A stretch of DNA of 42,507 nucleotides from IMG/VR virus record IMGVR_UViG_3300023276_000595, positions 1 through 42,507 of that record. One strand, written 5' to 3'. How positions within the stretch are numbered: position 1 is the stretch's first letter; every line of letters starts with the position of its first letter. Below, in pieces: positions 1 to 9,258 of the stretch. The position numbers were made by a program, and so were the translations under genes. The notes under the pieces are model-generated. The model was not told the DNA's origin and searched no databases. It saw nothing but the letters and a program-made list of their open reading frames with translations. This stretch comes from a virus.

Positions 1-243
1 AATGAGTTCCTTATTGAAGGTATTAGCAAGAAAACAGGTAAACCTTACTCTATCCCTAAAGGTATTAACTTTGACGAAACTAACTTTGCTAAAGAGTTAG
101 AAAAACGTTCAGAGGGTAAGCAGCAACCTAAGCAAGAGGTTAAGAAAGAAGCTGCTCCTGTTAAGAAGGAAGAAGCAGCACCTACTACAACTTATGCTGA
201 ACCTATGGAATTTGATGAGGAAATGCCTGACGTGCCATTCTAG
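1..243 (+). CDS. SSB-like protein, C-terminal part (5' end outside window)
   Basis: Reading frame 1 is open from the first base and stops with TAG at 241-243, giving the last 80 residues of a protein. It has a short folded-looking start (NEFLIEGISKKTGKPY), then a Lys/Glu/Pro/Ala-rich linker, and ends in an acidic tail closing with EEMPDVPF. A disordered linker ending in acidic residues plus a terminal aromatic Phe is the hallmark of bacterial and phage single-stranded DNA-binding proteins, where the tail recruits replication partners. The OB fold itself is outside the window, so the call rests on the tail and linker only. It is followed directly by a terminator. Confidence 0.6.
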   Translation, partial: NEFLIEGISKKTGKPYSIPKGINFDETNFAKELEKRSEGKQQPKQEVKKEAAPVKKEEAAPTTTYAEPMEFDEEMPDVPF

Positions 244-265
244 AGTTAATTAAAACTTAAACAAT

Positions 266-306
266 AAAAAGCCAGTTGATAAGAAATTATCAACTGGCTT
301 TGTTTT
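266..306. terminator. Bidirectional rho-independent terminator
   Basis: A perfect 10-bp stem (gccagttgat at 271-280 with atcaactggc at 289-298) has an 8-nt loop. It is flanked by A5 on the left and a T-rich run on the right, so it can work in both directions. It sits between the convergent SSB-like gene (+) and the holin gene (-). Confidence 0.9.
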
Positions 307-316
307 ATCTATAATA

Positions 317-763
317 TTATTTCTTTTTATTAAACTTACTAACTGCTGCTTGTATCAAAGAATCCCCTTTATTTCCCAAGTAGTAAAACGACAAAACCAC
401 CATGAAGGCAGCATTACCTTGCTCTCCGTTGTTCTGTAGTACATCCGCAGACTTCATCATAGCTTCAATTGTGGCTGCATCTGTCATCCAAGGTGCTATT
501 GCAGAGAGAGCCAAGCTACCAACATACTGTGCTGCCCAGACTAATGTAACCACTATAGCAATAAAACGCCTCGCAATTGCACTACCTGATGTTGACTTAA
601 GCCACTCCATATAAACGATATTCCCGTCACGAAGTGCTTTAGCTTTATCCTCTTCCTTTTCCTCGCTACTATAATAGAGCTTATCAATTCCAGAAGAAAC
701 GTTATCTATTAATGAAGCTGCTGCTTTGTCTGAACCGAACAATTTACCTATAAAACCTAGCAT
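317..763 (-). CDS. Holin, 3-TM (gene-transfer-agent type) family-like
   Basis: A 148-residue membrane protein. The N-terminal half is charged and probably cytoplasmic (LIDNVSSGIDKLYYSSEEKEEDKAKALRDG pattern). It is followed by a hydrophobic stretch at about residues 64-90 (ARRFIAIVVTLVWAAQYVG...LSAIAPW) and another near 117-130 (NAAFMVVLSFYYLG). The charged 'tSeEEK...R' start followed by two or three hydrophobic segments matches the Holin_3TM pattern. It lies directly downstream of the peptidoglycan peptidase gene, forming a lysis pair, and is the last gene before the bidirectional terminator. Holins form inner-membrane holes that release endolysin. The family call is from memory of the pattern, not a search. 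Confidence 0.75.
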   Translation of the reverse strand: MLGFIGKLFGSDKAAASLIDNVSSGIDKLYYSSEEKEEDKAKALRDGNIVYMEWLKSTSGSAIARRFIAIVVTLVWAAQYVGSLALSAIAPWMTDAATIEAMMKSADVLQNNGEQGNAAFMVVLSFYYLGNKGDSLIQAAVSKFNKKK

Positions 764-777
764 ATTAGAACCTCCTA

Positions 778-1173
778 TTATAAGATCAACTCTACGTGGG
801 GAAGATCGTGAAAAGTTTGGTCGCTAGTCTTCAAATCTGAATCCCAATCGCCTCCACATCTTACCTTAATACCAAGTTGTCTTGCACGTTCCTTAACAAT
901 ACCTATAAACATATACCATCTACCCTTATCCGACCAATCGATAGGGTATAGTCCAGCATCTATCGCTAAGGACGGCTGTGAGTTGTGTTTGCCGTTAGGG
1001 TATACAACCGTACTCTTACCTTCTTTAAATACCTTACTCTGGGCCTCCTCGTCTCGGTAGCCACATAAGATTGAAATGTCGTAGTGTTCTATTAAACTAT
1101 TAAACAATCTTTGTATCTCAGGGTGGCATGTGACCAACCTATCTTTACTGGATTTTCCGTATTTGTAACTCAT
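778..1173 (-). CDS. Endolysin, L-alanyl-D-glutamate peptidase (M15)
   Basis: 131 residues from the ATG at 1173, which has the upstream sequence cggag; a longer in-frame start at 1269 lies inside the endonuclease gene and is not credible. The zinc-peptidase motifs of the M15/VanY group (T5 and SPO1-type endolysins) are visible. These are H63 followed by D72 in KHNSQPSLAIDAGLYP, and a C-terminal D123-x-x-H126 in FHDLPHVEL. The arginine of GYRDEEAQ (about 40) is also typical. It would cleave the L-Ala-D-Glu bond in host peptidoglycan, and it has no signal peptide, fitting delivery by the adjacent holin. Only 4 nt separate it from the upstream homing endonuclease. Confidence 0.85.
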   Translation of the reverse strand: MSYKYGKSSKDRLVTCHPEIQRLFNSLIEHYDISILCGYRDEEAQSKVFKEGKSTVVYPNGKHNSQPSLAIDAGLYPIDWSDKGRWYMFIGIVKERARQLGIKVRCGGDWDSDLKTSDQTFHDLPHVELIL

Positions 1174-1177
1174 ACTA

Positions 1178-1909
1178 TTAAAACTCCGTTTTGTTAAGCT
1201 TACAATTATCAAAATGCCAACGCCCCATTGCACCCCTACCACCTTCTTTCCCGCAGTGAGGACAAACAACTAAAGGTTTCTTCTTACCTTTGTTTGCCAA
1301 GCGAATTTTATCTTTTGTCTCTTCTGAAAGGTGTTTTCCTTTGTAAAATCCTGTCTTACCTTTGTGAGAGTTACTCATCTTCGCCCTTGATTCCTTAGAA
1401 GGGTGCTTGCCAAAATTGGGATTATTAGCGCCACTCATCTTTTCACTCATTTTTAGTTTAGTGGCTGGTGAGGCTTTCCGTCCAAACAGAGGGGAACTTT
1501 TACCTCTTTTACCATACATCGGGTTTAGTTCACCAGACCTTTGTTCACTCATCTTTTCACGAGTTGCTTCAGAAGCTTTCGTACCTCTGTGTGCTTCTCT
1601 TATTTTATTTTTTGTGTCTTCTGAAAGGAGGCCATTAGCACCTCCGGTTTTTACATTATAGGTGTCCTCTCTACCTATAAATTCTTCATTTACTATCATC
1701 TCTTCTACGTGTTCTATAAGTGCTCTTGAATTTGCCTCTTCGATGACCTTCCTAGTGAATTTAGTTTTTCCGTATTTAGCTACTGCCCTCTTTATCAGTA
1801 AACCACTTCCGTAGTATTCTGTTGCTAAGAATTCTTTCTCAGAACTGTGTATACCTACATAAATCTTACCGTTTACTTTGTTCGTTATCTCATAGCAATA
1901 GTGTCTCAT
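1178..1909 (-). CDS. GIY-YIG homing endonuclease with NUMOD3 repeats
   Basis: 243 residues from ATG 1909 (ATG 1915 is an alternative; AAAGGA is better spaced for 1909). The N-terminus carries the GIY-YIG pattern (YEITNKVNGKIYVGIHSS). The middle has at least four NUMOD3-type DNA-binding repeats: SEDTKNKIREAH, SEATREKMSE, SPATKLKMSE and SKESRAKMSN, each followed by G-x-x-N-P or GK. A putative zinc finger CPHC...HFDNC lies near the C-terminus. This is the architecture of phage freestanding or intron homing nucleases such as Seg and I-TevI types. Its start overlaps by ATGA the stop of a 33-residue ORF and it sits between fibre and lysis genes, as expected for an invading selfish gene. Confidence 0.9.
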   Translation of the reverse strand: MRHYCYEITNKVNGKIYVGIHSSEKEFLATEYYGSGLLIKRAVAKYGKTKFTRKVIEEANSRALIEHVEEMIVNEEFIGREDTYNVKTGGANGLLSEDTKNKIREAHRGTKASEATREKMSEQRSGELNPMYGKRGKSSPLFGRKASPATKLKMSEKMSGANNPNFGKHPSKESRAKMSNSHKGKTGFYKGKHLSEETKDKIRLANKGKKKPLVVCPHCGKEGGRGAMGRWHFDNCKLNKTEF

Positions 1910-2007
1910 AACCATCCTTTAGTTAGCATTGTCCCAAGATCCATACGCTCTCCACGGGCTTTGTACGTGCTCTCAGAGACTAACTCTTGTACTTTAAAGA
2001 ATCTCAT
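1906..2007 (-). CDS. 33-residue ORF; possible truncated remnant of a peptidase-like gene
   Basis: The ATG at 2007 is preceded by a very strong ribosome-binding site (aaggagagatt). The product begins MRFFKVQELVSESTYKARGE and stops after 33 residues with TGA overlapping the endonuclease ATG. The opening 'FKvqELVs...Y..rGE' resembles the N-terminus of small phage M15_3-like peptidase proteins as I remember them. A remnant of a gene cut off by the homing endonuclease is therefore plausible. Alternatively it is just a leader peptide that couples translation of the endonuclease. No function can be assigned. Confidence 0.5.
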   Translation of the reverse strand: MRFFKVQELVSESTYKARGERMDLGTMLTKGWL

Positions 2008-2016
2008 AATCTCTCC

Positions 2017-2229
2017 TTAATTAGTTTCTGTTTCTGGGTAAGGGTATTCTGCTTGAATCTTAAATCGTTCTTCTAAGGCTTTAATTTCAAGATTATCAGC
2101 TTGGTCTTCCTCTCCCATTAAACGTTTAATTCGTGCTTCGTTTAAGAGAGGATCAGTACGTTTGGAGTAAGCTGTTTGTCGATTTGCTTTAACTATTGCA
2201 TGTTGTTCCATTAGTTTAAAATTTTTCAT
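2017..2229 (-). CDS. Small conserved phage protein next to tail fibre
   Basis: 70 residues from ATG 2229 (upstream agggtagga); an in-frame ATG at 2259 would overlap the fibre gene. It shows the pattern AYSKRTDPLLNEARIKRLMGEED...EIKALEERFKIQAEYPYPE. This resembles a family of short phage proteins with 'AY..E.DPLf.e.qR......I...yPYP' that usually sit beside tail or baseplate genes. It is charged, probably helical, and lacks membrane segments. Its role is unknown, possibly tail assembly. Confidence 0.75.
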   Translation of the reverse strand: MKNFKLMEQHAIVKANRQTAYSKRTDPLLNEARIKRLMGEEDQADNLEIKALEERFKIQAEYPYPETETN

Positions 2230-2240
2230 ATGTCCTACCC

Positions 2241-2957
2241 TTATGCTGTTCTCTTCCAACGATATACTGCAATCGATGGTTGAATGTTATTCATTGGAGC
2301 ACTACTACCTCTATTATCGGTTGTCCCTGAGAATGGATGTGTATGCGCTCCTGCCTGCGGCATTGAAAACCATGAACCATCATCGTTGCTTATCGTCCCT
2401 GAATCAAAATCAAACTCTGCATCTTCATTGGCATCTCCTACGAAACGGTTTTGTCCGTTAACAGTATGGTCATGTGCCCCCGCAGAGTCAGTTGTACCAG
2501 AGAAATCATGTGGATGTAAGGCTAATTCAGATTCTGTTTGTACGTGCTTGTACTCCCCCTCCGTATCCCCATCTACCCAAGTTTTGGATTCACTTCGGTC
2601 ATCGGTATACTCTCCAACACCTACTGTAACTAAACCTCTACCGAAGGATTCCCAAGTACCATAACCATACAATGTTGCAGGGTTTGTGCTATCACCTGTT
2701 ATTTCTATAATAGTGCCAACCCTTAGCTCCATTGCTAACTTAGCTGCAACTATCTGCGTAGGTATTAATTCTTCTGTAATATACTTCAACCAATTAGCCT
2801 GATTGTTAAACATATAATTCAATTGTTGATAATTTAAACTTTGTTTACCATACCCTTCATTTGTAACAGGAGAGACAGGGGCTACTTTACTTACAAACCC
2901 ATCCCCTCCTAGATTATCTGTTGCTATTAATAGTATTGGTTCTGTTGGTGCTGCCAT
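2241..2957 (-). CDS. Tail fibre / baseplate protein with gp10-type C-terminal domain
   Basis: 238 residues. The N-terminal part includes YQQLNYMFNNQANWLKYI, a baseplate-attachment-like helix. The C-terminal part has GYGTWESFGRGLVTVGVGEYTDD, then three H-x-H-type motifs (HPHDF, HDHTV, HTHPFSGTTD) and the closing NIQPSIAVYRWKR. That ending (n.qPyiavy.WkR) and the metal-binding HxH loops are typical of short tail fibre or baseplate tips (T4 gp12/gp10 C-terminal type). In those proteins, trimeric domains coordinate iron. The predicted role is host-surface contact. It lies between the DUF2612 baseplate gene and the small protein at 2017. Confidence 0.8.
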   Translation of the reverse strand: MAAPTEPILLIATDNLGGDGFVSKVAPVSPVTNEGYGKQSLNYQQLNYMFNNQANWLKYITEELIPTQIVAAKLAMELRVGTIIEITGDSTNPATLYGYGTWESFGRGLVTVGVGEYTDDRSESKTWVDGDTEGEYKHVQTESELALHPHDFSGTTDSAGAHDHTVNGQNRFVGDANEDAEFDFDSGTISNDDGSWFSMPQAGAHTHPFSGTTDNRGSSAPMNNIQPSIAVYRWKRTA

Positions 2958-3020
2958 TTATATTCTCCTCAAGGTCTCTAAGAGACTTTAATATTCTATT
3001 AAACAAGCTTCGCTTGCTGC

Positions 3021-4040
3021 TTATGTATTCTTAACTGTCTTTGCTGAGGAATGTATCCAGTTTGTCAACAGCCCTTCAACGGAAGACTCTTTTTCATCTG
3101 ATAAACCGTTTGAAAACTCTGTCATCTGATACACACCTACTGTAGTTGTTAGCTCATCATCTGTAACACTTATAATGTATTCACCTAAACCTACTGTGTC
3201 AGGCTTTGTCCAAGTTTTACGTTGTCCTGTGAGGTCTTGAATAAGCGTATAGTTATCTAACAATGTTGTGGTGTTTGTACTGTCAATAATATCTTTTAAA
3301 TCAACTAAGTAAAATGGTACTGCATCTGTCTGAGCTGCCCACAAGTTAGTATTGATAGGGAACATCTCTTCAAGCTGCTGAGATACGTCTTTGTCAGATA
3401 AACAGTTAGCAGGGATAACAACTTCCATGAAATTATTTGAGTCAGGAACACCCTCCACAAGAGTCATTGTGTAAGTGTTATGAGGCGTTGTTCCATTCAA
3501 TGAAGTAGTAAGGGTATTACCAACAACACTGAATATATATTCCCCATTTCCAACACCGTCAGGTTTTAGCCAAGTTTGTTTAACCTCCCCTGCATCGTGT
3601 ATATAAGGAAATATATCCAATACAGTGGTAGTGTTAGATACTTTGATGATTAACGGACTTCTACGTTTAGTTATCAGTGGGTTTTCCCCAAAGAATAATA
3701 TCTTCATCAACGTAACAATATCAGCCCTGCTTGAACCTGTTGTTTGCCTAAAAGACCTCAACTTAATTAAGGCTTTATATTCTGTGTCAGTCTGGTCATA
3801 ACGTAGCAAGCCAATACGTTCACCTAACATATCTAGTATCTTACCTGATGCATTATTTAACTGGCGGAGATAGGCTAACTTAATAACCTCCCCGTCCATA
3901 GTTTCCCATCGAGTACAATACCATCTAGCCAACCTCTCATAATTCTTCTTAGTTTGTAAGAACTGCGGAAGCTCTGCTACACCGTCATCAACAAAATTAG
4001 GATCTAATTGAATATGATTAGCTGCGGGTAAATCACTCAT
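3021..4040 (-). CDS. Baseplate wedge-type protein (DUF2612-like) with inserted repeats
   Basis: 339 residues. Residues 1-130 (LPQFLQTKKN...ARWYCTRWE...LGERIGLLRYDQTDTEYKALIKLR) match the DUF2612 tail protein pattern, equivalent in position to Mu gp48 / P2 gpI. It directly follows the baseplate J gene (8-nt gap). After residue 135 there are two copies of a roughly 45-residue module, at about 136-180 and 256-300. Each has SNTTT/TNTTT, then TW.KPD.VG.GEYI.SV and L-T-T. A partial copy occurs in the tailspike at 6262-8604. The repeats probably decorate the baseplate edge or anchor receptor-binding proteins; that is inference. Confidence 0.8.
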   Translation of the reverse strand: MSDLPAANHIQLDPNFVDDGVAELPQFLQTKKNYERLARWYCTRWETMDGEVIKLAYLRQLNNASGKILDMLGERIGLLRYDQTDTEYKALIKLRSFRQTTGSSRADIVTLMKILFFGENPLITKRRSPLIIKVSNTTTVLDIFPYIHDAGEVKQTWLKPDGVGNGEYIFSVVGNTLTTSLNGTTPHNTYTMTLVEGVPDSNNFMEVVIPANCLSDKDVSQQLEEMFPINTNLWAAQTDAVPFYLVDLKDIIDSTNTTTLLDNYTLIQDLTGQRKTWTKPDTVGLGEYIISVTDDELTTTVGVYQMTEFSNGLSDEKESSVEGLLTNWIHSSAKTVKNT

Positions 4041-4048
4041 ACCTTCTC

Positions 4049-5557
4049 CTAATTGATTTGTATGATCTCTACACGTTCAGCAGCAAGTCTTGGTAGTTCA
4101 CTTGGGTCTGGTGTAAAGTCTGTTGGTGTTGCAGGGTAGCTTAGGTCTGTTTCTTCTTTGACCCGCACAACTAACTGTGTGAACCTCTGAGGATTAGCAT
4201 CAAACACTGCACCAGAAAGTTGCCCAATAAACACAGTACCTCCTACAGGGATGTTACTATTAACTGCTTCCACTGAGTTTTGTATTGCCAATAATTCTGA
4301 AGCTGCAAGAGGTATACCATTCAAAGGTTTATACTCTACACGTACAGACATATTTAGATCAGTTCCACGGCTAAATTGAATAACTTCTGTTTTACCATCC
4401 TCTGTAGCTATAGTGTAAGAGATATCCCCAATGTACTGATTATTAGCTGGTTGCGTGTCATATAACACTTGAGCAATTTCTTCTGTTTCTCCACCAAAGA
4501 TAATAGGCTCTACTGAAACAACACCAGCACTGTCTACATTCTTATCTAAGCTTGCACCTACAACTTCATCAATTGCTAAGATAGCTGCTAAGATAGATGG
4601 GCGCGTACCACTATGAGGTGCATCTGCTTGTTGTGTTGCTCTTACTGCATAAGCTGCATCTGTCTCTACATCACTTCCACTAAAGAAGTTTTCAATGTTT
4701 GTGACAGAGACATAGCCATCTGGTGTTGGTAGGATTGAGTTGATGTTATTAGCTGCTAAGGGATTATACCCTGTTTCAGTAGCTAACACACTATGCTCAG
4801 AGAAACGATTACCAATACGATTAACACCGAATTTTAGTTTGAAAGTTTCTTCTGTACCAACTAACACATACTCAGTTTCCCCATCTACAACAACTGGTGT
4901 GAAGCCTACGTAGAAGCTAACCTCTCCAGCCGTAGAGTTTACGATAATATTTGTTGTATCATTGGGGATTGCTAAATCAAAGAAGGATTTCAAGTTGTTA
5001 AAAAATGTTAGCTTATCTGCATCATCATTCGAAACTAGTGCGTATGTTGCACTGCTAATTAAATTATCAGCATTTGTAACTGTAAATGTGTAAGTACCTG
5101 TAGCTAATGTACCCCCTTCAATCTTATACCCTTTAACAAAGTCACTCATTGTCCGAGAGGTTTCTGCTACATATTGTGCACCTGCAATAGAACTAAAAGT
5201 GACACCTGCAACAATCTCATCAATATTCTCAGAAGTGGAGTCTGTTTCTACAATTGCTGCTCCAGTACCAAATGTTGCTGCATTACGAGGAATGCCTTGG
5301 TAAGCGTACAGTTCATCAAGGAACTCACCTTCTGCTCCGTTAAGAGTTTGAGAGTTGTAAGTTGCTTCTAATTGTTGCCATGATTTAAACTCTCGTCCAG
5401 CTTGCATCTTTGCTAATATACCAGCTACAGAGTTATCACCTACGTTGATTTCGTTTCCAAAATAATCTTTTAAATCTTGTTGAATGCTTTCTATAATTTC
5501 TGTAAGATTGGGACGATAAAAACCCCACTCATTACTTATTCCCCACGGTGTTGGCAT
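4049..5557 (-). CDS. Baseplate J-like protein (Mu gp47 type)
   Basis: 502 residues from ATG 5557 (TTTGGAGACAACAA upstream). The longer frame to 5686 runs into unrelated DNA and lacks a ribosome-binding site. The start MPTPWGISNEWGFYRPNLTE, the segment LNGAEGEFLDELYAYQGIPRN, and the middle TETGYNPLAANNIN, SGSDVETDAAYAVRA are diagnostic of the baseplate_J family. These proteins form the wedge that links hub and fibres. It has its own TGGTATAAT-type promoter upstream. The expected upstream neighbour, the gp46-like gene at 8656, is displaced by about 3 kb of inserted tailspike and rusA-like DNA. Confidence 0.92.
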   Translation of the reverse strand: MPTPWGISNEWGFYRPNLTEIIESIQQDLKDYFGNEINVGDNSVAGILAKMQAGREFKSWQQLEATYNSQTLNGAEGEFLDELYAYQGIPRNAATFGTGAAIVETDSTSENIDEIVAGVTFSSIAGAQYVAETSRTMSDFVKGYKIEGGTLATGTYTFTVTNADNLISSATYALVSNDDADKLTFFNNLKSFFDLAIPNDTTNIIVNSTAGEVSFYVGFTPVVVDGETEYVLVGTEETFKLKFGVNRIGNRFSEHSVLATETGYNPLAANNINSILPTPDGYVSVTNIENFFSGSDVETDAAYAVRATQQADAPHSGTRPSILAAILAIDEVVGASLDKNVDSAGVVSVEPIIFGGETEEIAQVLYDTQPANNQYIGDISYTIATEDGKTEVIQFSRGTDLNMSVRVEYKPLNGIPLAASELLAIQNSVEAVNSNIPVGGTVFIGQLSGAVFDANPQRFTQLVVRVKEETDLSYPATPTDFTPDPSELPRLAAERVEIIQIN

Positions 5558-5587
5558 TTGTTGTCTCCAAATAAAACTTAATAAAAC

Positions 5588-5596
5588 ATTATACCA
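5588..5596 (-). promoter_or_regulatory. Putative late promoter -10 (TGGTATAAT)
   Basis: On the minus strand the sequence reads TTTCATGGTATAATG, an extended -10 element (TGn-TATAAT) without a clear -35, 31 nt before the baseplate J start codon. The same nonamer or a one-base variant precedes four other minus-strand genes (16345, 19232, 33862, 37366). Confidence 0.65.
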
Positions 5597-5654
5597 TGAA
5601 ACGAGGGTAGTTATAAGGGAAGGAGGATTATAGGAAATAAGACTGAACCTTTGA

Positions 5655-5837
5655 GGAATATTAACGCCAGAGCAACGCGCAGACATAGAGCTAGATAAAT
5701 ATGCAGCATTGCTAGTGTGGCAGCTTAAACACGCTAAGATAGGCCGCTACGATGTTAAATCGGCCATTGATAGCGCCGATGAAGATAGCCGTGAAATGCT
5801 TAGAGGTGCGATAAATAAATATAGGGGTATGAGATGA
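5655..5837 (+). pseudogene. 5'-truncated small phage gene, upstream partner of rusA-like gene
   Basis: The plus-strand frame is open for 60 codons and ends with TGA at 5835-5837, overlapping the RusA start as ATGA. Predicted residues include LTPEQRADIELDKYAALLVWQLKHAKIGRY and end INKYRGMR. There is no credible start codon: the frame is closed by TGA at 5652-5654 and contains no ATG until near its 3' end. The amino-acid usage and translational coupling argue that this was a real gene that lost its 5' end when the segment was captured. Its function is unknown. Confidence 0.6.
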
Positions 5838-6220
5838 TAAAACTAACACTTCCGATTTATGGAGTGGTTTCCGCAAAGAATCCCAATAAGTCGCTGACAT
5901 TGAATTGGTATAGAAACGCGCATTATCAATCAGCTAACTCTGCTAAAAAGAGATTTAAAAAGATGATTTTGCCGCAACTGCTATCGCTTGATGCTATAGA
6001 GCCGCCAATTAAGATTAGGTATAAATATTATGCAAAACGCAAAGGGACTGACCTAGATAATTTCTGTTCTGTGTCGCGGAAATTCTTTCAAGATGCCTTA
6101 GTCGAAGCTGGATTGATTGAGGATGATAATTGCGATTTTATAGTTAAATCAAGCGAAGAATACGCGGGAATTGACAGGCAAAACCCGCGCATTGAAGTTT
6201 TTATTGAGCAGTTAGATTGA
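5834..6220 (+). CDS. RusA-family Holliday-junction resolvase-like protein
   Basis: 128 residues, start ATG 5834 overlapping the upstream stop. The C-terminal half shows the RusA pattern: KRKGTDLDNFCSVSRKFFQDAL (catalytic-type D-x-D at 'TDLDN'), LVEAGLIEDDN (second acidic pair) and IDRQNPRIEVFI. RusA enzymes resolve four-way junctions during phage recombination and replication. It lies on the plus strand inside the minus-strand structural operon, without an evident promoter of its own, and has a higher-GC texture than its neighbours. It appears to be part of an inserted segment (about 5600-8650), and expression is uncertain. Confidence 0.8.
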   Translation: MIKLTLPIYGVVSAKNPNKSLTLNWYRNAHYQSANSAKKRFKKMILPQLLSLDAIEPPIKIRYKYYAKRKGTDLDNFCSVSRKFFQDALVEAGLIEDDNCDFIVKSSEEYAGIDRQNPRIEVFIEQLD

Positions 6221-6261
6221 AAGCAAAAAGGCGGCTCGATAAGCGATCCGCAGAGGATTGG

Positions 6262-8604
6262 TTATCCGATATTGAAATCAGAGATCACAGTCGGCCTGAC
6301 ATTAGTCCCTTGTATAGAAAGATTTGCCGCGCCATTCCCTGATCCTTGGCAACCTAGAGCTACAACGTTTGCGCAATCACTATCGACTTTAACCCCATTG
6401 CTCCCGCTGTCGTGTCCCTGTACATTTGACAGGCTAATATTTGAGCATGTTGACGCTCTAAATCCGTCATACGCAGCACCTCTGCATATTACATTAGACG
6501 CGTTAACTACTAAACAACTGGACAATCTTACTCCGTCACTCCCTCCGTCAGTTGTCCAGTTGCTTAGGTTCACATCCTTGCAGTTACGTGCATACAACAT
6601 TCTGCCTGCTGTAGTTGATCCACTAACAGCAACATTGCTAATGTTAATGTCAGTAACAGTGTTAGGGCTTGCTGCTGAATTTGCATAAATCATGTGAGCG
6701 TCACTATTTGATTGCGTGTTAAAGGTGCCGCCAACCAGTGAAGATATATTAAGTCTGAATGTATCAGGCCCGGTCTTAATTAATCCACCGCCAATGTCAG
6801 CAAAATTCACACAGTCAACATTTATATTGCTTGTCCCTAGTAACTCTATCGCGTGAACTTTGCCGAGTGGGGACATTGACAGGTCTTGGTTTGTACGTGT
6901 TAGATTTAGGTTTTCTAGGTTTATAGACGATGTTGTTGCATAAACACCTGGCCCGTCGCCATAATCAATCACAATATTGCCACCAGATACTTTAGTTGCG
7001 GATGTACTTATTGCGATTCCTTTGTAAGATGCAATAGACAGAGTTGAAAATGCAACATTTGAGTCTGCCACTGCAAATGCAGAACCACCATTTCCGCCGC
7101 CTAAGTCCCACTTGGCCTCCTGAATATTACAAGCAGTTATAGTTTTCGGTGTAGACCATGTAACGTCTGTTTGATCTAAGATGTTAGTAGGTGCATCACC
7201 GTTAGCAAATCCGATCTTTATCGTACCAAGCGCCCCATTGGCCACAGTGCCCCCAAAGAACCCGACAGGTGTTTTACCTGCTGCTGTTACGTTGATATTA
7301 CTAAATAATGAGTCCTTTGAACCAGTTAACACCTTAACTGCATCTTTGCCTGAATATCGAATAAATACGCCCGAAACAACAGACTTACCCCTGTTAGATC
7401 CGCTGATGTAAATTGTTGAATCAGTTGATTGCCTCACATAAATATCACTTACGATGGTGTCGTCACATGCCGTAACGATAAGGCCACCACGAGTAGCTAG
7501 GCGAATATCACCTATTAAATTTACTCGCTGGCGTGTCATTACAATGCGAGCAAAATCACCATCAACACAGTTACCCCTTATTAGATCCCAGTAACAATCA
7601 TCAAGATTTATATCTCTATTATTAGCAGTAGCAAACTCTTTAATGCCTCCCCCAACAGTATTGATAAAGTTACACGACTTGTACATAACATTTGTGCTGT
7701 TCTGGTGAACGACAAGTTTTACAGGTCTTGTTAATCCCACACTTGCTTCGTTACCAGTCGCGTCAGTGTTGGGCCATTTTGCAAAATCCAAAACCCCTGC
7801 GTTACCGTTTAATGTCATGCCCTCATATAGTATATCGTCAGCATTGACAGCATTAACGAGAAGTGACTTCCCTGTGCCACTTGTCATGAATCCGTCCGAG
7901 CAGTAAATCCCGCCAGTGCGCAGAAAATTAAATCTAGCACCAGAAGGGACGCCCACTTCCGCATCTATCTCGAAATGTCTATGTGATATAATATGCACAC
8001 CATCCTCTAGCATCTGCTGAAACACTGGTGCGTTTTTTGTTTTATCTGATTCTGATGCTCCCAATTTAATTGGATCGACATACCCGCTATACTGGCGCAG
8101 CGAGAGAGCAAGGGTTGCTATTCCTACGCACTGCACTATATTTTTTCCGTTCGTTGATACTGTTAGTGCTAATACAACATCAAAAATACCGTCCGCCCTG
8201 TCAGTAATGCGTATTGAGTCGCCCAATTTAATATCCGTTGATTCGACAGCTTCTGCAATCGTCATTTTTAGATCTGCCACCCCCTGCGTAACCATGGTGT
8301 ATTTTGAAGGGCTAGAAACATCAGTCTCAAGCTGATCACCTACAACCGAAATAATCACCTCACCAGTGCCAACGGCAGCAGGCAAGCCCCAAGTAGTTTG
8401 GTCAACAGGATTATACAAATACTTTGCATCTACTGTTATTACCTGCCCTGCAACGCCGTTTAAAACAGCCTCACGCGGTACGTTTAGCGCTAGAGCGATT
8501 GATTTTAAAGCATCTGTTTTCTCTGAGTCCAAATACTCAAAATTTTCATCCAATTCACTGTGTGTCAAGGGTCTTCCTAACCCATCTCTTAAAGTCAAGC
8601 TCAT
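6262..8604 (-). CDS. Tailspike / receptor-binding protein, right-handed beta-helix type
   Basis: 780 residues from ATG 8604 (AGAGGTGAT upstream; a GTG at 8613 lies in the ribosome-binding site). The N-terminus MSLTLRDGLGRPLTHSELDENF is the phage-adaptor start seen in many tail fibres and spikes. Residues about 70-105 carry a copy of the TW..P..VG.GE..ISVVGD module. Downstream repeated short beta strands rich in N, S, G and I (for example NLDDCYWDLIRGNCVDGDFA, FADIGGGLIKTG, HDSGSNGVKV) have the periodicity of a parallel beta-helix, as in capsule-degrading spikes. An enzymatic (depolymerase) role is inference. It is inserted between the gp46-like and J-like baseplate genes. Confidence 0.8.
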   Translation of the reverse strand: MSLTLRDGLGRPLTHSELDENFEYLDSEKTDALKSIALALNVPREAVLNGVAGQVITVDAKYLYNPVDQTTWGLPAAVGTGEVIISVVGDQLETDVSSPSKYTMVTQGVADLKMTIAEAVESTDIKLGDSIRITDRADGIFDVVLALTVSTNGKNIVQCVGIATLALSLRQYSGYVDPIKLGASESDKTKNAPVFQQMLEDGVHIISHRHFEIDAEVGVPSGARFNFLRTGGIYCSDGFMTSGTGKSLLVNAVNADDILYEGMTLNGNAGVLDFAKWPNTDATGNEASVGLTRPVKLVVHQNSTNVMYKSCNFINTVGGGIKEFATANNRDINLDDCYWDLIRGNCVDGDFARIVMTRQRVNLIGDIRLATRGGLIVTACDDTIVSDIYVRQSTDSTIYISGSNRGKSVVSGVFIRYSGKDAVKVLTGSKDSLFSNINVTAAGKTPVGFFGGTVANGALGTIKIGFANGDAPTNILDQTDVTWSTPKTITACNIQEAKWDLGGGNGGSAFAVADSNVAFSTLSIASYKGIAISTSATKVSGGNIVIDYGDGPGVYATTSSINLENLNLTRTNQDLSMSPLGKVHAIELLGTSNINVDCVNFADIGGGLIKTGPDTFRLNISSLVGGTFNTQSNSDAHMIYANSAASPNTVTDINISNVAVSGSTTAGRMLYARNCKDVNLSNWTTDGGSDGVRLSSCLVVNASNVICRGAAYDGFRASTCSNISLSNVQGHDSGSNGVKVDSDCANVVALGCQGSGNGAANLSIQGTNVRPTVISDFNIG

Positions 8605-8655
8605 TTGTATCACCTCTTTTATTTATAAAATATTCTTATTTGATAACATCATCTA

Positions 8656-9258
8656 CTAATGATATTCATTACCAAAGTAACCTGTATCAACATAACCTGT
8701 TGCTGTATAACCTTTATCAATTCCCCATAGATTCCACCAAGTACTATCACCACTCTCAGGTAAATCAATATTAAGAAACTTATACAACCTGTTAGAATCG
8801 TCAATAAACCCTTGGTCAAGCTCACACACATTAAACGTTTCATCATCAACATCAATCGGTGCAGGGTAACTATATTCAGTGATTCTTGGAGTTGCTAAAC
8901 TTAAATCAACTACAACATTATCTACATAAGCTTCAACTCGGTTTAACACGTAGCTTCTTGTCACAGGGTCAAAGGATGATGAAATGTTCTTAACTGCTGT
9001 GACATCATCTTCTAAATTAATCTGCGCAATAAACTCTGCATCTGCTTGATCTTTTGTAACACCTGCTATAAGGAGGCGTTGTCTGTAAGGTGTACCGAAA
9101 GCTTCGTTGTAAGCCCACTCACCTTTCCAAGTGGAAAACCTCACCTCTAATCTTTGCCTTAATGAAGTGCCACTGTCAGGAGTTAAAGCGAAATCTCCAT
9201 CAATAATGCTTAAATCCCCCGTGTTTTCATCGAGGAGTAAATCCATATAATTTGCCAT
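8656..9258 (-). CDS. Baseplate protein, Mu gp46 / GPW_gp25-like
   Basis: 200 residues, ATG 9258 with CATAGGAGACATAA upstream. The first 70 residues (DLLLDENTGDLSIIDGDFALTPD, LRQRLEVRFSTWKGEWAYNEAFGTPYRQRL) match the gp46/gp25-like baseplate family. A C-terminal extension ends in aromatic/Gly-rich repeats (GDSTWWNLWG...TGYVDTGYFGNEYH) that may contact fibres. It precedes the tailspike; in related phages the J-like gene follows immediately. Confidence 0.88.
   Translation of the reverse strand: MANYMDLLLDENTGDLSIIDGDFALTPDSGTSLRQRLEVRFSTWKGEWAYNEAFGTPYRQRLLIAGVTKDQADAEFIAQINLEDDVTAVKNISSSFDPVTRSYVLNRVEAYVDNVVVDLSLATPRITEYSYPAPIDVDDETFNVCELDQGFIDDSNRLYKFLNIDLPESGDSTWWNLWGIDKGYTATGYVDTGYFGNEYH

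Follow-up and report, generated by a model that had tools for sequence, protein, structure and literature searches.

The segment between about 5.6 and 8.65 kb of the window, a 42.5-kb piece (42,507 nucleotides) of a contractile-tailed phage infecting marine bacteria, appears to be a receptor-binding-protein cassette captured from another type of marine phage, with rusA and a DUF3283 fragment hitchhiking beside the tailspike gene; we place the probability of this whole account at roughly 85%. The cassette would have entered between the gp46-like and J-like baseplate genes, at a junction where fibres and tailspikes are repeatedly gained, lost and swapped in this phage group. It would comprise the tailspike gene and the DNA just past its stop codon in a donor with converging operons, a late one ending in the tailspike and an early one ending in DUF3283–rusA, so that the rusA and DUF3283 pieces were merely carried along. 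The N terminus of the tailspike most likely attaches to the baseplate, and a polysaccharide on the host surface is the most likely target of its C-terminal beta-helix part, for binding or for degradation. Recombination may have proceeded through homology in the tailspike linker, through illegitimate joining, or through both.

Layout of the gp46/J interval

The baseplate genes of the window are nearest to those of the Vibrio phages VnaP, PWH3a-P1 and IBT_VpB-34 (J ~40% identical). Between the stop codon of the gp46-like gene (8656) and the ATG of J (5557) lie 3,098 bp. A tailspike of 780 aa is encoded there, and rusA, behind a 5′-truncated DUF3283 ORF, converges on the tailspike gene. An earlier note on this DNA had named and placed these parts correctly: the tailspike, and the opposite-strand rusA with its truncated ORF, between gp46-like and J. 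The features of the interval and its flanks are as follows.

8656–9258, minus strand: gp46/gp25-like baseplate wedge protein, 200 aa (PHROG 4233, E 7e-51; PHROG 120 baseplate wedge, E 1e-16); upstream flank of the insert, with a C terminus that is unusually long past WWNLWG in the alignment
8610–8617, minus strand: ribosome-binding site of the tailspike gene, AGAGGTGA
6262–8604, minus strand: tailspike, 780 aa, ATG start, foreign codon usage (z −6.3), identity to the IBT_VpB-34 fibre
8509–8604, minus strand: tailspike aa 1–32, candidate virion-anchor tip; relative not found
8290–8508, minus strand: tailspike aa 33–105, linker domain common to tailspikes of other phage types (identity to L091, L093 and L081)
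6225–6251, minus strand: probable intrinsic terminator of the tailspike gene, a GCGG-A-TCG stem followed by CTTTTT (RNA fold −8.3 kcal/mol)
5834–6220, plus strand: rusA, RusA-like Holliday junction resolvase, 128 aa, intact, probable passenger (PHROG 1682, E 6e-39)
5655–5837, plus strand: 5′-truncated DUF3283 gene, overlapping rusA (PF11686, E 6e-13, positions 4–60 of 61)
5588–5596, minus strand: extended −10 promoter element of J, TGGTATAAT, native to the site (TGNTAWAAT before J in 22 of 24 phages)
4049–5557, minus strand: J/gp47-like baseplate wedge protein, 502 aa, downstream flank (PF04865, E 1e-8; PHROG 6, E 1e-35)

The probable terminator at 6225–6251 is not among the sites listed by a consensus terminator scan. 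Elsewhere in the window, a GIY-YIG homing endonuclease gene with four NUMOD3 motifs (1178–1915, minus strand) overlaps the start of a peptidase-like (endolysin) ORF (778–1269).

The segment is an insertion relative to L007 and foreign in composition

An empty version of the site is present in a close relative, a single 6-kb contig (L007; IMGVR_UViG_3300023276_000202), where 90 bp separate the gp46 stop codon from the J ATG. This contig aligns to the window on both sides of the segment, with 90% DNA identity over J and 77% over gp46 and beyond, and its J protein is 96% identical. Relative to L007, the window carries an insertion. An independent assembly of 19,679 bp (L006; IMGVR_UViG_3300023112_000124) is 100% identical to window positions 1–6456, so neither the J-side junction nor the order J–DUF3283′–rusA–tailspike is an assembly error; for the gp46-side junction, the window sequence is the sole witness. 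L006 also runs past the left end of the window and could extend its genome. The extra residues of the gp46-like protein were considered as a border of the insert; the gp46 of VnaP has a comparable extension.

The GC fraction is 0.428 over 5655–8604 and 0.384 in the remaining window. In a leave-one-out comparison of codon usage across 37 ORFs, the lowest scores are those of the tailspike gene (z −6.3) and rusA (z −3.6), and both flanks are ordinary (gp46-like, z +1.6; J, z +2.4). As no other gene tested deviates so strongly in codon usage as these two, the segment is read as foreign. The proposal that only the C terminus of the tailspike is foreign was dropped, as the N-terminal 110 residues are equally high in GC and GC3. 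The empty site and the deviating composition were both checks that the earlier note had proposed, and together with the donor-type gene order in L010, L012 and L013 and the linker and relics in L081 and L091 they bear out its view of a fragment captured from another phage. The stable ancient layout that it had set against this view, with the same arrangement and matching composition in all relatives, is not what the relatives display.

The difference between the window and L007 could also arise by loss, if their common ancestor had the segment and L007 deleted it. The evidence for an empty site among close relatives is one 6-kb contig, the gp46 tails of the window and L007 differ in length, and in the wider group the site is often occupied (11 of 24). 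However, the codon usage of the tailspike and rusA is so far from that of the phage that entry would be recent in any case, no other relative of J has rusA at the site, and the empty sites of distant relatives share the short gap and the promoter of L007. We consider deletion in L007 unlikely and favour capture of the cassette by the lineage of the window.

Capture by a mobile element, whether a transposon, a homing endonuclease or a site-specific recombinase, was also weighed, with a GIY-YIG/NUMOD3 endonuclease gene lying only ~4 kb from the segment. That gene is nevertheless outside the segment, no transposase or recombinase gene lies within 5560–8656, and the repeats at the borders are no longer than those in shuffled sequences. 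With border repeats not beyond chance, a mobile-element origin was rejected as extremely improbable.

The tailspike is modular

Residues 104–780 of the tailspike are 65% identical to residues 164–850 of the fibre that IBT_VpB-34 carries at the same junction on a different anchor. The linker is present on other C termini in three phage contigs, with identities to the window of 68% in L091, 55% in L093 and 59% in L081 (aa 33–96), and the linker DNA is 75% identical between the window and L091. The protein is therefore modular in both directions, its C terminus occurring on another N terminus in IBT_VpB-34 and its linker on other C termini in L081, L091 and L093. Residues 1–32 matched nothing in phages or among the loci compared, and the protein lacks an anchor of the MSTFPATNS type, which is usual at the gp46/J site. 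Searches with the tailspike in IMG/VR, species genomes and plasmids gave no matches, leaving IBT_VpB-34 as its sole full relative.

In function, the tailspike most likely acts as a trimer that serves as receptor-binding protein or depolymerase, an assignment with modest support from profile matches and predicted structure. Its match to the Pfam Beta_helix family (E 0.005) is below the family cut-off. A model of the C-terminal region (aa 499–780) is of moderate quality (pLDDT 70), and most of the folds that it matches belong to beta-helix lyases and tailspikes. These matches are all weak, with none at E ≤ 0.001, and the single-sequence model of the full-length protein is poor (pLDDT 42), for which reasons the evidence for a possible enzymatic activity is weak.

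Modules related to the linker also occur elsewhere. A resident baseplate protein of the window (3021–4040, minus strand) contains two copies of a related short module, TW.KP..VG.GEYI.SV, and L074 (12903–14996) has a related linker as well.

rusA and the truncated DUF3283 gene

The rusA product combines its PHROG family match with the catalytic aspartates of RusA resolvases. In the alignment, the DLDN...DD residues are kept in 11 homologues, and D73, D75, D98 and K83 (alignment numbering of the first sequence) are invariant; the Pfam RusA match (E 4e-4) is just under the cut-off. The overlapping ORF belongs to the DUF3283 family, scoring 48.9 bits against a cut-off of 25.8. Aligned with intact homologues of 65 and 69 aa, it is incomplete, without a start codon and ~6 residues, and has an in-frame stop just upstream. 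A search for intact homologues of the 5655–5837 product beside rusA, as the earlier note had advised, found them in Aeromonas prophages (L082), in which an intact DUF3283 gene lies upstream of a rusA. The DUF3283 matches in K303-type phages have no adjoining RusA, and a genome scan with RusA gave one match, an unrelated Sulfurovum fragment. Through PHROGs, the DUF3283 fragment of the phage is linked with DNA polymerase III theta, and a chromosomal-type DUF3283 gene is located near an rctB-like replication initiator gene in a Vibrio sp. HDW18 replicon (L059, 5986–6195).

Since its upstream gene is truncated and a simple promoter scan found none upstream, rusA is probably a passenger. It could instead be functional cargo, kept for promoting recombination at the site and thereby driving module exchange, as the gene is intact with its catalytic residues, although L081 and L091 have lost their related copies or retain them only in broken form. 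Intactness fits a recent arrival equally well, however, and to the truncated neighbour and the result of the promoter scan are added the antisense position of the gene in a late operon and the absence of rusA from the gp46/J site in every other occupied relative. We therefore judge a retained function very unlikely and treat rusA as a hitchhiker. The earlier suggestion that the resolvase may have aided the recombination likewise finds no support here, where related phages have this region only as broken relics.

Probable donor type and relics in other phages

Three marine phages (L012, L013 and L010) encode RusA proteins that are 57–59% identical to that of the window (59% for L012/L013), at the end of a plus-strand row of early genes. 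Their tail-fibre genes are on the other strand and convergent with rusA, at a distance of 100 bp in L012. The tail-to-tail order of the tailspike and rusA–DUF3283 in the window is thus the one expected where early and late genes of such a phage meet, and the probable source is a marine phage in which a late operon ending in a tailspike meets an early operon ending in rusA. No donor with the C-terminal domain of the window next to a window-type rusA was found; the sole relative of that domain, IBT_VpB-34, has no rusA.

Remnants of the same flank lie beside sister tailspikes. L081, which shares its sample series with L006, is a siphovirus-type contig by its tail genes. Its tailspike joins the window-type linker to a GDSL-esterase C terminus, and 134 bp past the tailspike stop codon there is an antisense, broken DUF3283 relic (L081 3537–3637; 88% DNA identity to window 5659–5759). 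In L091, the 3′ end of rusA persists as an antisense relic just past the tailspike stop codon (67.5% DNA identity over 117 bp, E 6.5e-9). Antisense relics are therefore present in two of the three contigs that share the linker. Given the tailspikes and relics of L081 and L091, the linker and the antisense rusA–DUF3283 flank recur together across phage types, and we infer that either the two moved together or they provided the homology by which C-terminal domains were swapped. In the window and in L081, the DUF3283 homology has the same first base but different DNA upstream of it, which suggests that the truncation may predate the transfer and is not its scar.

L091 additionally contains a broken duplicate (3955–4030) of the following gene's 5′ end; that gene is head maturation protease-like and starts at 4509. 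The duplicate resembles the L093 copy more than the gene of L091 itself and looks like a scar of illegitimate recombination. L093, a sibling of L091, has neither the rusA relic nor the gene-start duplicate.

Cargo recurs at the gp46/J junction

The gp46/J junction is occupied in 11 of 24 related phages and contigs, by fibre or tailspike genes of 1.9–5.7 kb, and empty in the other 13, with a gap of ~9–91 bp. The earlier statement that the gp46-like and J genes are normally adjacent was thus too strong. On the J tree, occupancy changes 7 times, at least 5 of them across well-supported branches. Most occupants in Vibrio phages have a common N-terminal anchor, MSTFPATNS..., and diverge past it.

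The element TGNTAWAAT occurs within 70 bp before J in 22 of the 24 phages, whether the site is occupied or empty, and in 0.9% of random 70-mers. A separate promoter for J, as claimed earlier, is therefore supported, but its supposed newness as a consequence of the insert is contradicted by its presence at empty sites. As the promoter is old, cargo enters a pre-existing border between transcription units, and it may be tolerated at the junction because J has its own promoter there.

A wider reading is possible, but we hold it only tentatively. The junction may be a long-lived docking site for receptor-binding genes across a wide phage group, made permissive by the extended −10 element of J. A cassette of linker-bearing tailspike and antisense rusA–DUF3283′ might then circulate within one marine community among contractile- and long-tailed phages, its linker and downstream relic acting as homology arms when C-terminal domains are swapped.

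Comparison with known systems

Exchange of C-terminal receptor-binding domains is textbook knowledge and a known route to host change. The present case is a clear and well-documented instance of the known transfer of tailspikes between unrelated phages. Modular tailspikes with exchanged C-terminal receptor-binding domains have been described in E. coli and Klebsiella phages (PMC10408124; see also PMC6872550), and the window tailspike resembles them in having an N-terminal part fitted to the virion and a C-terminal domain common to several phages. It differs in that donor genes unrelated to the tail (rusA and DUF3283′) came along with the swap, and in its lack of the anchor usual at the site.

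In the Alteromonas phages A5, V22 and P24, a host-recognition module is common to distinct morphologies (PMC10579305). Both cases concern marine bacteria and a receptor-binding module in a myovirus and in other morphologies; the Alteromonas module, however, consists of a tail fibre, a chaperone and other virion parts, whereas that of the window is one tailspike with fragments of a donor early operon. The Vibrio phages IBT_VpB-34, R16F, qdvp001, 10AMN, P018-4 and S4-7 likewise have a tailspike or fibre at the gp46/J junction, and in IBT_VpB-34 this protein has the C-terminal domain of the window tailspike. In contrast to the window, this group has another N-terminal anchor, no rusA or DUF3283, and a J protein that is only ~40% identical.

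Less expected than the transfer itself are the non-tail donor DNA carried along, the relics beside sister tailspikes and the repeated use of a promoter-bearing junction as a landing site. An empty site, a foreign gene, a donor-type gene order and decaying donor scraps in the same sample series together make up an unusually complete record of what would be a host-range swap. The gp46/J junction with its own promoter is a place to seek receptor-binding genes in related phages and to study the tolerance of cargo.

A further occupied gp46/J site with an opposite-strand gene is present in L071 (4116–7404), where the ORF at 6727–7404 is sialate O-acetylesterase-like (SASA).
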